Positions 5,203 to 10,528 of a DNA stretch of 45,354 bases are shown piece by piece. A program made the position numbers and the translations under genes. The DNA comes from an uncultured Dorea sp. (GTDB lineage Bacteria; Bacillota; Clostridia; Lachnospirales; Lachnospiraceae): contig CANDQP010000011.1 in NCBI GenBank assembly GCA_947388185.1, forward strand, positions 1 through 45,354. Reading direction: 5' to 3'. Each line of letters starts with the position of its first letter. The stretch's first letter is position 1. Below the pieces are notes generated by a model that was not told the origin of the DNA, ran no database searches, and saw only the letters and a program-made list of their open reading frames with translations.

Positions 5203-6774
5203 CTACAGGTATTCTATCCTACAAGAGTGTTTTTTATTCTTTTTGTCATAGTTGATTCCAACCAGAAGAATTTTACCTCCAAAATCTTCCACAGCCTGTA
5301 TATATTGTTTGTTTCTGATCTGTGCAATGGCGCCTTCTGATGAATTATTCCATTTCAATTCTATAAGCAACAGCGGTTTATCAGATCCTCTCTTGGGGAG
5401 GAACACTATATCTGCATAGCCTTGTCCGCTCGGAAGTTCTTGAAATTCCAGATAATCTTTCACCCGGCTGATATAAGCCAGCTGAATAACTGCGCGCAGA
5501 GACTGCTCATTGTTATAGAATAAGGGCGAGGAATATTCCGTGTGGATCTTATCCAACAGTCTGGCCACCGTTTCTTCATCCATATGCAATGTAGCATCCA
5601 ATAACTGCTCTGATTGACGGATTACTTGTATCATTTCAGGGCTGTCTGCATTTTTTATGGCACGCAGGAATTCTTCCGTTACTTCTTGATTAGGGATAAA
5701 TACGCTTTCAGCAGATACATCATAAGTCAGATACCCCAGATGTACCAGCAGTGTAAGCACATCATCCCTACTGTGGAAAGTAGTCATATCATTTTGAAAG
5801 GTATTGGTATCTATTTTACATTTCATGCCACCGAGCATGGATAAGATCATGTCCTTGAGGCCGTTAAAATTCATAGTGATATAGGTTCTCAGGGATTCGT
5901 ATGTCTCTGTCTGTGCCCAGTAGCTTCCGAAGCGTTTACGGTTTATAGCATCTAATACTGATTTGGGGCTGTATATGTGAAGGTGATCGCCCAGAATATA
6001 GCCATCGTACCAATGCTGCAACTCATGGAAATCCAGACTGGATTCTTCGCACAGCCTGCGGACTTCATCCTCTGTAAAACCGACATATTCTTCTAACGGC
6101 GAGGAATCCACCATGGTAAATTCATAGAAATCGCTTAGTGCGGACTGATTGCCATATTTCTTAATGGGCAGAATTCCTGTCATATAAGCGGCCTCAATCA
6201 TCTTATCGGTCAGGCTGCTTCGGAAAAGCCCCCGCAAAAGCTGGACGTATTCTTCCTGCAGGGATTTATCTTCCTTCGCCTCCCGGAACAGGGCGTCCCA
6301 TTCATCGATGATGACGATAAACTTCGAATCAGACCTGGCAGTAATATCAGAGAGAGCAACCGGCAGCGAATGTTCTGATATTTCGACACGGTCCGGATAA
6401 ATCTCCCGTAACTCTTTGATGACAGCTTTTTGTAGGTTTTTAACGGTATCTTTCATGTTGTCTGCAGTTGAGATGAACCATGTAATATCCAGATACAGTA
6501 CGTTGTACTGGTTCAAATGTAGTTGATAAGAAGACTTTTTGGCAATCTTCATATTATGAAAAAGCTCTTCTGAATCACAGCTCTTATCATAATAGGCACA
6601 TAACATCTGGGCGGCGAAGGATTTCCCGAATCGTCTCGGCCGGTTGACACAGGTAAGCTTTTGCTTCGTTCCCAGAGTATGATTAATATAATCGATCAGC
6701 CCTGTCTTGTCGATGTATTCTCCTTTTCGTATGGATTGAAACCCGTCATTCCCAGGATTCAGATACTTTCCCAT
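5203..6774 (-). CDS. AAA-ATPase-like protein with C-terminal PD-(D/E)XK-type nuclease domain
   Basis: ORF 523 aa; Walker A-like region VNRPRRFGKSFAAQML, FIVIIDEWDALF, C-terminal ADIVFLPKRG..LLLIELKWN; RBS gggagg upstream of ATG. Confidence 0.87.
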   Translation of the reverse strand: MGKYLNPGNDGFQSIRKGEYIDKTGLIDYINHTLGTKQKLTCVNRPRRFGKSFAAQMLCAYYDKSCDSEELFHNMKIAKKSSYQLHLNQYNVLYLDITWFISTADNMKDTVKNLQKAVIKELREIYPDRVEISEHSLPVALSDITARSDSKFIVIIDEWDALFREAKEDKSLQEEYVQLLRGLFRSSLTDKMIEAAYMTGILPIKKYGNQSALSDFYEFTMVDSSPLEEYVGFTEDEVRRLCEESSLDFHELQHWYDGYILGDHLHIYSPKSVLDAINRKRFGSYWAQTETYESLRTYITMNFNGLKDMILSMLGGMKCKIDTNTFQNDMTTFHSRDDVLTLLVHLGYLTYDVSAESVFIPNQEVTEEFLRAIKNADSPEMIQVIRQSEQLLDATLHMDEETVARLLDKIHTEYSSPLFYNNEQSLRAVIQLAYISRVKDYLEFQELPSGQGYADIVFLPKRGSDKPLLLIELKWNNSSEGAIAQIRNKQYIQAVEDFGGKILLVGINYDKKNKKHSCRIEYL

Positions 6775-8055: not shown

Positions 8056-8107
8056 GATAAAAAGGGGGACAGGACAAATGCGGAGGATTTGCCCTGTCCC
8101 TTTTTAT
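8056..8107 (+). terminator. Rho-independent terminator downstream of the hydrolase
   Basis: aaaaaggggga caggacaaat-gcggag-gatttgccctgtcccttttt, near-perfect stem with T-run. Confidence 0.8.
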
Positions 8108-8139
8108 GGCGAAGTATCCCAATCAGAGGTGAACGATAC

Positions 8140-8169
8140 TTGATAATCCTGTTTGTGTCGTGTTATGAT
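8140..8169 (+). promoter_or_regulatory. candidate sigma-A promoter for the ATPase/nuclease cassette
   Basis: TTGATA (8140-8145), 18-bp spacer, TATGAT (8164-8169) with TGT extension. Confidence 0.5.
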
Positions 8170-8200
8170 AAACGTATGAATTCCAGAGGGTGAAAGTAAT

Positions 8201-9595
8201 ATGCCGGCAGGAGGGAATATGAGAAGAAGAGTAATCATTGAGGACTTTGGGAAGATTGAACATGTCGAATTAGAAATGAAACCAATGATGATGTTTGTGG
8301 GAGATAATAATAGCGGGAAGAGTTATCTGATGAACCTTCTATGGGGATTTTCTTCGGAAAGCAGTGCGCTGTTGACTGATCTGACGGAGGACATATTGAA
8401 CTCGGATTTGTACAAAGAATGCGAGCAGTATATGATGGAGAAGATAGTTGAGGGAGAGATAGAAGAAATATTATCTGCGAAATGGTTTATAAAGTTCCTA
8501 AAGTTACTGAACTTATGTATTGAACATAATAAAGATCATTTTGTCTCAGAGATATTTAATAAGGAGATGCATATAGGAAAATTGAAATTGGATATGGAGG
8601 ATGAAGAGAAAATTGAAATTATAGTAGAAAACAGATCGATATATTTTGAGGTGACGAACAGGGGGAGGACGAATAGAGAAAAACCGGATTATATTATTAC
8701 TGAAAAAACATTGTGGATTAGATTGTTCAGATATTATCAGATGGGAATGCAGATTGAGGGGAAGGATGCATTACAGAGGAAAAGGTATGTTAAGTTCGTG
8801 TTAAATATGCTGTTGAAATATTGGACAGAAATATCTGTCCAAGAAGGTGATCCGGTATTTCTTCCATCTTCCCGGACCGGGTTCGTTTTGTCTAAGAATC
8901 TGATCATTAATCATATGTATGAGAATAGTTTTAACAGAGAATCAGATCTTGTGCCGTCGTATTTTACGAAGCCTGTAATCAGTTTTTTGAAATTATTGAA
9001 CAGTGTGGGGGAAATAGAGGGAAAGAACCAGGAATTATGCAAATTGGCAGAGTTTATTGAGCAGTCCGTTCTACATGGTCAGGTTGAAAGACAGGATACG
9101 ATCTCACGGGCGTTTCTATATAAACCAGATAATATGAATGATTCTATTCAGATGTATCTTGCTTCAGCAGTGGTTACGGAGATTACCCCATTATACCTGC
9201 TGTGCAAATATCAGCATAGGATATCGCAGATGTTTATAGAGGAGCCGGAGATGTGTCTTCATCCGCAATTACAGACAGCGGTCGCAAAGGTTCTGGTTAG
9301 AATGTGCAGTATGGGAATACCGGTGATCATGACTACACACAGTGATATTATCATCCAGTATATCAACAATATGCTCCGTGTAAATAATAGTGATAAAAAG
9401 CAGGAGCTTATGGAGAAGTTTCAGATTGAAGGACAGGATCTGTTGGAAGAGGATCAAGTCGGGGTATATCAGTTTGCTTGTCAGGGAGAAGGGAATTCCA
9501 AAATTGAAGAACTGAAATCCGGAGCGGTGGGATTTGAGACAACAACTTTCAGCAATGCATTCGAAGAGATGCTGGAACTGACATATGATATATAA
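8201..9595 (+). CDS. AAA/OLD-like ATP-binding protein (ABC-type ATPase fold)
   Basis: ORF 464 aa; RRVIIEDFGKIEHVELEMKPMMMFVGDNNSGKSYLM (Walker A), MFIEEPEMCLHPQ (Walker B), MTTHSD (H-loop). Start may be 8219 (MRRRVII), preceded by ggaggg. Confidence 0.85.
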   Translation: MPAGGNMRRRVIIEDFGKIEHVELEMKPMMMFVGDNNSGKSYLMNLLWGFSSESSALLTDLTEDILNSDLYKECEQYMMEKIVEGEIEEILSAKWFIKFLKLLNLCIEHNKDHFVSEIFNKEMHIGKLKLDMEDEEKIEIIVENRSIYFEVTNRGRTNREKPDYIITEKTLWIRLFRYYQMGMQIEGKDALQRKRYVKFVLNMLLKYWTEISVQEGDPVFLPSSRTGFVLSKNLIINHMYENSFNRESDLVPSYFTKPVISFLKLLNSVGEIEGKNQELCKLAEFIEQSVLHGQVERQDTISRAFLYKPDNMNDSIQMYLASAVVTEITPLYLLCKYQHRISQMFIEEPEMCLHPQLQTAVAKVLVRMCSMGIPVIMTTHSDIIIQYINNMLRVNNSDKKQELMEKFQIEGQDLLEEDQVGVYQFACQGEGNSKIEELKSGAVGFETTTFSNAFEEMLELTYDI

Positions 9596-10253
9596 CGAAG
9601 GAAAACGTGCAGCAGGGAGGTGCTTGCAGATGATTCCCGAATATTTGAGGCAGAATCTGGACTTGTTCAGAGAAGATGAGTATACGGTTGTCATAGATAA
9701 AGATGAAGAGATTCATATCTTGGAGGCAGAGGCAGAAGGCGAGGCGGACCTGGAAAGTTATTTTGAGGAAGATGCAGTGATCTTCCATGTTCCGGAGAAG
9801 AGAACCTTGCCTTATCTGGATGCGGAGAAGAAGGCCTGTCAATGTGCAGATAAATTCATATTCATCAAGAATAGCGTAAATGCTGGATGGCAGTTACATA
9901 TTCTGGAATTTAAGAAAAGTATCAAGTACGATAAATGGAAGAAGATCAGGAATCAATTCAAATATGGGATTATGAATGCAAGGGCATTGGCTGCATTCTT
10001 GAATATAGAGATTGATGAGATTATATTGGAGACGGCATACCGAAATGACTGGAATCCCCGCAGTGCGCTGCAGACACCTACGATGATGCGGGCGGCAAAT
10101 TCTGCGGCAGAGGTGAAAGCATATGAAGAGTGGCGGGGAGATTGTGTTTGGTTGGAATTAGATTCGGCGGAAAGAAGCTTTCGCCATGATAAGATTAAGT
10201 TGGACGAGTCGGGAAAGGGGATAAAAGTATATAGGAAAGTCAGGGAAAGGTAA
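9585..10253 (+). CDS. hypothetical protein, putative PD-(D/E)XK-type nuclease partner of the upstream ATPase
   Basis: ORF 222 aa overlapping the ATPase stop by 11 nt; candidate core CADKFIFI...WQLHILEFKKS (D codon 9849-9851, ExK codons 9906-9914). Confidence 0.6.
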   Translation: MIYNEGKRAAGRCLQMIPEYLRQNLDLFREDEYTVVIDKDEEIHILEAEAEGEADLESYFEEDAVIFHVPEKRTLPYLDAEKKACQCADKFIFIKNSVNAGWQLHILEFKKSIKYDKWKKIRNQFKYGIMNARALAAFLNIEIDEIILETAYRNDWNPRSALQTPTMMRAANSAAEVKAYEEWRGDCVWLELDSAERSFRHDKIKLDESGKGIKVYRKVRER

Positions 10254-10255
10254 TA

Positions 10256-10412
10256 AATCCGGAGGAAAACACTGACGGTATGTGTTGCATGCCATGAGGC
10301 TATCCATAACGGGCCAAGTCCATTAGCTGTAGACTGAGGGAAAGCCGTATGCGCTGTAAGGTGCAAGTACGGTTGGGGAAGGAGTAGGCTCTGCGGAGCC
10401 TGCTTACTTCAT
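10256..10412 (+). mobile_element. 3' remnant of a group II intron (domains V and VI; no IEP/reverse transcriptase); 5' limit uncertain
   Basis: 34-nt domain V at 10342-10375, AAGCCGTATGCGCTGTAAGGTGCAAGTACGGTTG (AGC triad, GUAA tetraloop, AG bulge), then D6-like hairpin GAGTAGGCTC-tgcg-GAGCCTGCTTACTTC with a bulged A near 10406 and 3' end ..CAT. Confidence 0.8.
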
Positions 10413-10490
10413 GGTATGGTCCTACGAAACATAAGGAAGGTCAGAGAAGTAAAAATGGGGAAAACTTCTGATAGAAGCAATGATATAATA

Positions 10491-10512
10491 GGGGGGAACA
10501 GATTCCCCCCCC
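10491..10512. terminator. G-run/C-run hairpin at the 3' end of the chromate transporter operon
   Basis: GGGGGGAA-caga-TTCCCCCC, with the C tract extended to 9. Confidence 0.5.
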
Positions 10513-10528
10513 CGATATATGGAGATGA

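Follow-up and report, generated by a model that had tools for sequence, protein, structure and literature searches.

Operons that join an OLD-type ABC ATPase to a nuclease-fold protein form a published architecture. Operons of an OLD-ABC ATPase and a Novel REase are attributed to Krishnan et al. 2020 where that work is cited in PMC12137116 and PMC12409358. PD-T4-4 is an E. coli anti-phage system (Vassallo et al. 2022, PMC9519451) listed as containing a PD-(D/E)XK nuclease, and WonAB, described in 2025 from the V. cholerae WASA-1 prophage, consists of an OLD-type ABC ATPase and a PD-(D/E)xK protein (PMC12137116). Phage defence has been shown in published experiments for both PD-T4-4 (PMC9519451) and WonAB (PMC12137116). 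Defence by WonAB requires both genes and is lost with variants of WonA at K34, R182, E300 or H333 or of WonB at K71; WonB has no toxicity unless WonA is active, and arrested cells cease translation with their genomic DNA intact (PMC12137116).

Here we describe a gene pair in a 45,354-nucleotide stretch of DNA from an uncultured Dorea sp. of the Lachnospiraceae, hereafter the window. A reading made from the letters of the window (the sequence-only reading) had put the pair forward as a candidate undescribed defence-like system. Because pairs of an OLD-ABC ATPase and a PD-(D/E)xK protein have already been published (Krishnan 2020, PD-T4-4, WonAB), and with a match of the ATPase to the PD-T4-4_A model at E 3e-40, that description is unsupported; as judged from sequence, the architecture itself is known, and what is new is a separate ATPase branch with its own nuclease.

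Gene pair and start sites

Both open reading frames are genuine, and their extents are as follows.

8201 to 9595, + strand: gene A, 464 aa, predicted OLD-type ABC ATPase (ORF, Pfam AAA_15/AAA_21, PD-T4-4_A match); probable start 8219, giving 458 aa
9585 to 10253, + strand: gene B, 222 aa, predicted PD-(D/E)xK nuclease (seven invariant residues, PD-T4-4_B profile match); probable start 9630, giving 207 aa

For gene A the start at 8219 is probably to be preferred over 8201. In gene B the ATG at 9630 is preceded by GGGAGGT, and the protein then begins MIPEYL, which is the exact start of the gene B homologue at locus L003. From this start B is 207 aa long, lies about 34 nt past the end of A and therefore does not overlap it; the 11-nt overlap given by the sequence-only reading holds for the first ATG of B, from whose choice it arises, but disappears with the likelier one. 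At the other end of B conservation is lost over the last ~8 residues, the closest relative being homologous only up to 10230, and this altered tail falls outside the conserved part of the protein.

Gene A, a predicted OLD-type ATPase

Pfam profiles AAA_15 and AAA_21 match gene A, similarity to SMC_N being weak, and the top PADLOC model is PD-T4-4_A, with AriA, Old, GajA and PtuA far behind; the closest PDB sequence is 6p74, an OLD-family protein. The motifs that had been located in this frame, Walker A, Walker B and the H-loop, are all present, their residues being invariant or almost so in ten homologues.

8297 to 8323, + strand: Walker A, VGDNNSGKS (K40); G34, N36, N37, G39 and K40 invariant in ten homologues
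8873 to 8875, + strand: R225 of a PxSRTG motif; P222, R225 and G227 invariant; aligns with the region of WonA R182 (mapped through L022)
9233 to 9265, + strand: Walker B, FIEEPEMCLHP (E348); E348, E350, H354 and P355 invariant
9335 to 9346, + strand: H-loop, THSD (H380); T379, H380 and S381 invariant

Searches with Pfam and defence-library profiles returned no TOPRIM match in gene A, in agreement with the earlier statement that a C-terminal TOPRIM is missing. By these profiles and motifs gene A is classed as an OLD-type ABC ATPase without a TOPRIM domain. When aligned through the homologue at locus L022 (K33, R175, E309, H341), K40, R225, E348 and H380 of gene A fall at approximately the positions of WonA K34, R182, E300 and H333.

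Gene B, a predicted nuclease

Alignment of 11 gene B sequences, the closest 88% and the most distant 17% identical to that of the window, leaves only seven invariant columns, namely E47, G52, D89, E108, K110, A134 and L139. Those of predicted catalytic interest are listed below.

9723 to 9725, + strand: E47, acidic; invariant in 11 relatives and across 19 partner proteins
9849 to 9851, + strand: D89, predicted metal ligand; invariant in 11 relatives
9906 to 9914, + strand: E108-F-K110, predicted (D/E)xK; K110 invariant across 19 partner proteins

The D...ExK pattern noticed earlier is thus D89-X18-E108-x-K110, a PD-(D/E)xK signature kept in all 11 relatives, and the codon singled out at that time, 9906 to 9908, is that of E108. 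Comparison of the B family profile with that of PD-T4-4_B by hhalign gave a score of 39 over 39 columns covering the D and the xK, set against at most 15.8 for unrelated decoys and at most 15.0 for 40 column shuffles. Scores with a WonB-like profile (19.9, shuffle maximum 17.1) and with the partner type of the L017/L024/L033 group (21.4, shuffle maximum 19.2) are suggestive at best. Because D89, E108 and K110 are invariant and the core is homologous to PD-T4-4_B, gene B very probably encodes a PD-(D/E)xK nuclease, a fold assignment from profile and motif.

Neither gene B nor its ten relatives match the PD-T4-4_B model up to E = 1, a model that true PD-T4-4_B proteins match down to E 1e-108; the likeness is therefore limited to the active-site core. 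Gene B has no convincing match in Pfam, PADLOC or NCBIfam, its hits to the Phage_blade and MHO_4530 families being dismissed as below cut-off, and no relatives of B were found in phage or plasmid records or, by sequence, in the PDB. AlphaFold2 models from one-sequence and two-sequence input, with no deep alignment, had a pLDDT of 38 and are uninformative on the fold; in these low-confidence models strands and helices succeed one another around D89, E108 and K110 as a PD-(D/E)xK fold predicts.

Relation to described systems

The window pair is like PD-T4-4 in consisting of two adjacent genes, in that A is best matched by PD-T4-4_A (E 3.2e-40), and in that the D..(D/E)xK core of B is homologous to PD-T4-4_B by profile comparison. 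Unlike PD-T4-4, it carries the Walker A sequence GDNNSGKS rather than G(P/K)NN(V/T)GKT, its ATPase lies outside the PD-T4-4 clade, and its nuclease is unrecognised by any PD-T4-4_B model. Of the two genes, only A has a convincing match in the PADLOC defence library.

With WonAB the pair shares an OLD-ABC ATPase adjoining a predicted PD-(D/E)xK protein. In contrast, WonB is a protein of 16.1 kDa whereas the window partner is 207-222 aa, the Walker A region of WonA reads PQANGK (from a published primer) and that of the window GDNNSGKS, and the pairs that resemble WonAB, at loci L022 and L027, belong to a clade apart from the window. The published wonA/wonB qPCR primers translate to PQANGK, TTVSKD and CDWILS, for which the L022/L027 counterparts are GPQASGK, IIVSRD and CCDFLVL; from these short primer-derived peptides, L022 and L027 appear to be WonAB-like.

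The pair likewise agrees with the published description of the Krishnan 2020 operon architecture, an OLD-ABC ATPase with a REase-fold protein, the fold in the window being predicted from profile and motif. Gabija, PARIS, Septu and OLD resemble the pair in having an OLD-family ABC ATPase paired or fused with an effector, but TOPRIM, UvrD helicase and HNH are all absent from A and B, and a Gabija, PARIS or Septu assignment was rejected on that ground. As far as sequence comparison goes, the window pair is a distinct branch of the published OLD-ABC ATPase and PD-(D/E)xK kind, with a nuclease absent from the libraries searched; the Krishnan class was compared by description only, so the pair could prove to be a member of it.

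In a tree of 27 ATPase sequences, that of the window falls in a clade of ten (support 100/99) separate from the PD-T4-4 clade (97/97), and the WonA-like ATPases (GPQxxGK) form another clade (99/99) without the window. The window clade is nearest to the L017/L024/L033 group, with support (93/90) short of the starred level. Across this tree the downstream protein changes type seven times, the minimum for eight types, and all sampled partner proteins show a D..(D/E)xK-like stretch as judged by eye. Because ATPase clade and nuclease type agree, the tree suggests joint evolution of sensor and effector.

Other OLD-ABC ATPase pairs are present in Lachnospiraceae at L017, L022, L023, L024, L026-L030 and L033-L035. 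Their partners have a D..(D/E)xK-like stretch and no library match to B of the window, and the partner of each pair tracks its own ATPase clade. A phage-borne copy of a PD-T4-4-like pair is carried by Vibrio phage 1.202.O between its repressor and integrase genes (L039:2035-4066).

Genomic context

The surroundings of the pair include four features.

8066 to 8100, strand not assigned: terminator-like stem, assigned to the upstream hydrolase gene, in the flank outside the cassette
8104 to 10527, strand not assigned: segment missing in sister genome G003, which has 18 bp instead; flanks 94-96% identical
8140 to 8169, + strand: possible promoter, TTGATA-18-TATGAT (consensus scan; 10/12 matches, TG before the -10)
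10340 to 10412, + strand: remnant of group II intron domain V/VI (RF00029, 56 bits), just 3' of B

The pair lies within a slot, between hemW and two chromate-transporter genes, that is variable in the genus. This slot is empty in genomes G004, G005 and G007, holds A and B alone in G009, and in G008, of the same genus as the window, holds A and a frameshifted B with another AAA/nuclease-like gene; in G003 it holds the hydrolase and an AAA-PDDEXK_9 gene only. Because of the exact absence in G003 and the variable contents of the slot in congeners, we conclude that the pair behaves as a small presence/absence cassette. G+C drops to 34% inside it.

The regulatory sites assigned by the sequence-only reading fared unevenly. 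The strong terminator that the pair was said to follow is a real stem, but as it is also found in G003, which is without the pair, it is that of the hydrolase gene upstream. The proposed promoter of the pair's own exists as a site, but promoter-like sites in the region number 7 against 7.3 (sd 2.8) in shuffles and are thus in no excess.

No reverse-transcriptase ORF belonging to the intron remnant was seen nearby, and the stretch 10254-10528 is single-copy in the genome. Further cargo of the slot is a gene at 5203-6774 on the - strand with AAA-ATPase_like and PDDEXK_9 regions, homologues of which (24-95% identity) occupy the same slot in sister genomes. In G010, AAA-ATPase-like ORFs directly behind the chromate-transporter genes (L081:3160-5001) are probably same-slot cargo, with a contig break between.

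Distribution and selection

Gene B is present in 7/298 genomes of the family and in 2/398 genomes of a phylum sample that includes the window's own, and every copy found is directly 3' of an A gene on the same strand. Between the window and its nearest relative, 89-90% identical, the NG86 dN/dS of A is 0.14 and that of B 0.16 (YN00: 0.23 and 0.25, respectively); both genes are under purifying selection. The frameshift in the G008 copy splits gene B into two ORFs and leaves A open (L009:6410-7062; L079:3477-4090), reflecting decay or a sequencing error.

The expectation that such pairs would lie near defence islands was not borne out at seven other family loci, where the neighbours are mostly ordinary genes and one, an AbiLi-like ATPase, is clearly defence-like. 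RecD-type matches near these loci were discounted as defence genes, each being most likely an ordinary helicase.

Proposed mechanism and alternatives

We consider it likely that the pair is a two-gene anti-phage cassette in which an OLD-ABC ATPase dimer senses infection and licenses a PD-(D/E)xK nuclease, the most likely outcome being abortive arrest. Gene A would form an ATP-bound dimer with composite active sites contributed by K40, R225, E348 and H380, and these sites would change state on an infection cue. Gene B, through a predicted active site of D89, E108 and K110, would dock on A and become licensed to cut nucleic acid, either RNA or DNA, and this cutting would halt phage production, the likeliest route being an abortive arrest like that of WonAB. 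We take abortive infection through an ATPase-gated nuclease as the most likely reading because WonAB is the best guide and the window residues lie at about the WonA positions.

A defence role would be in keeping with the PD-T4-4_A match, the WonA-equivalent residues, the core of B, the constant pairing, the agreement of ATPase clade with partner type, purifying selection, the patchy occurrence of the cassette and the published phage defence by PD-T4-4 and WonAB, which share its architecture; the scarcity of defence genes near relatives, the frameshifted B of one sister genome, the low confidence of the AlphaFold2 models of B and the failure of PD-T4-4_B models to match B argue against it. The compact module of ATPase sensor and nuclease effector envisaged by the sequence-only reading gains support from the invariant residues, the PD-T4-4_B profile match, the obligate pairing and purifying selection.

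The main rival is direct immunity, in which phage DNA, or else a replication structure, would be recognised by A and the phage DNA cut by B, sparing the cell. In the screen that yielded PD-T4-4, 7/11 systems having components that putatively bind or cleave DNA gave direct immunity (PMC9519451), and by profile scores B is nearer to PD-T4-4_B than to WonB-like proteins. Yet WonAB, the best-studied relative of the same architecture, arrests the cell and stops translation while DNA stays intact (PMC12137116), and no methyltransferase or other self-marking gene lies beside the pair; direct immunity is a possible, less favoured reading.

Patchy occurrence of two adjacent genes in a variable slot, the smaller encoding a predicted nuclease, could also describe a toxin-antitoxin pair with B as the toxin and A merely restraining it. 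Simple sequestration would not need the full set of ATPase residues that A retains under purifying selection, and the WonAB nuclease is toxic only when WonA is active (PMC12137116), which makes this improbable.

More improbable still is a decayed, non-functional cassette in the window genome, as might be read from the altered end of B beside the group II intron remnant and from the frameshifted B of a sister genome: both frames are open, the catalytic residues are intact, dN/dS against the nearest relative is ~0.15, and the altered tail lies outside the conserved part of B. The least probable reading is a housekeeping or DNA-repair ABC ATPase with an accessory protein and no defence role, to which the weak SMC_N similarity of A lends something, RecF, RecN and SMC proteins being related ATPases that act in repair, but which is disfavoured by the rare and patchy distribution of B (few family genomes, an empty slot in three congeners, exact absence in G003) and by defence models being the closest library models of A.

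Implications

Returning to the ATPase-gated nuclease as the preferred reading, the pair adds to the modules known from work in E. coli and Vibrio, PD-T4-4 and WonAB, a distinct branch from gut Clostridia with a nuclease that the defence libraries searched here miss. Tentatively, pairs of the GDNNSGKS type, which we found chiefly in Lachnospiraceae, might constitute a defence system apart, with a trigger and a nucleic-acid target of their own. In that view several OLD-ABC ATPase clades, this one among them, would each have recruited or diverged their own PD-(D/E)xK effector. The co-evolution of sensor and effector that the tree suggests would be testable by exchange of partners between branches.
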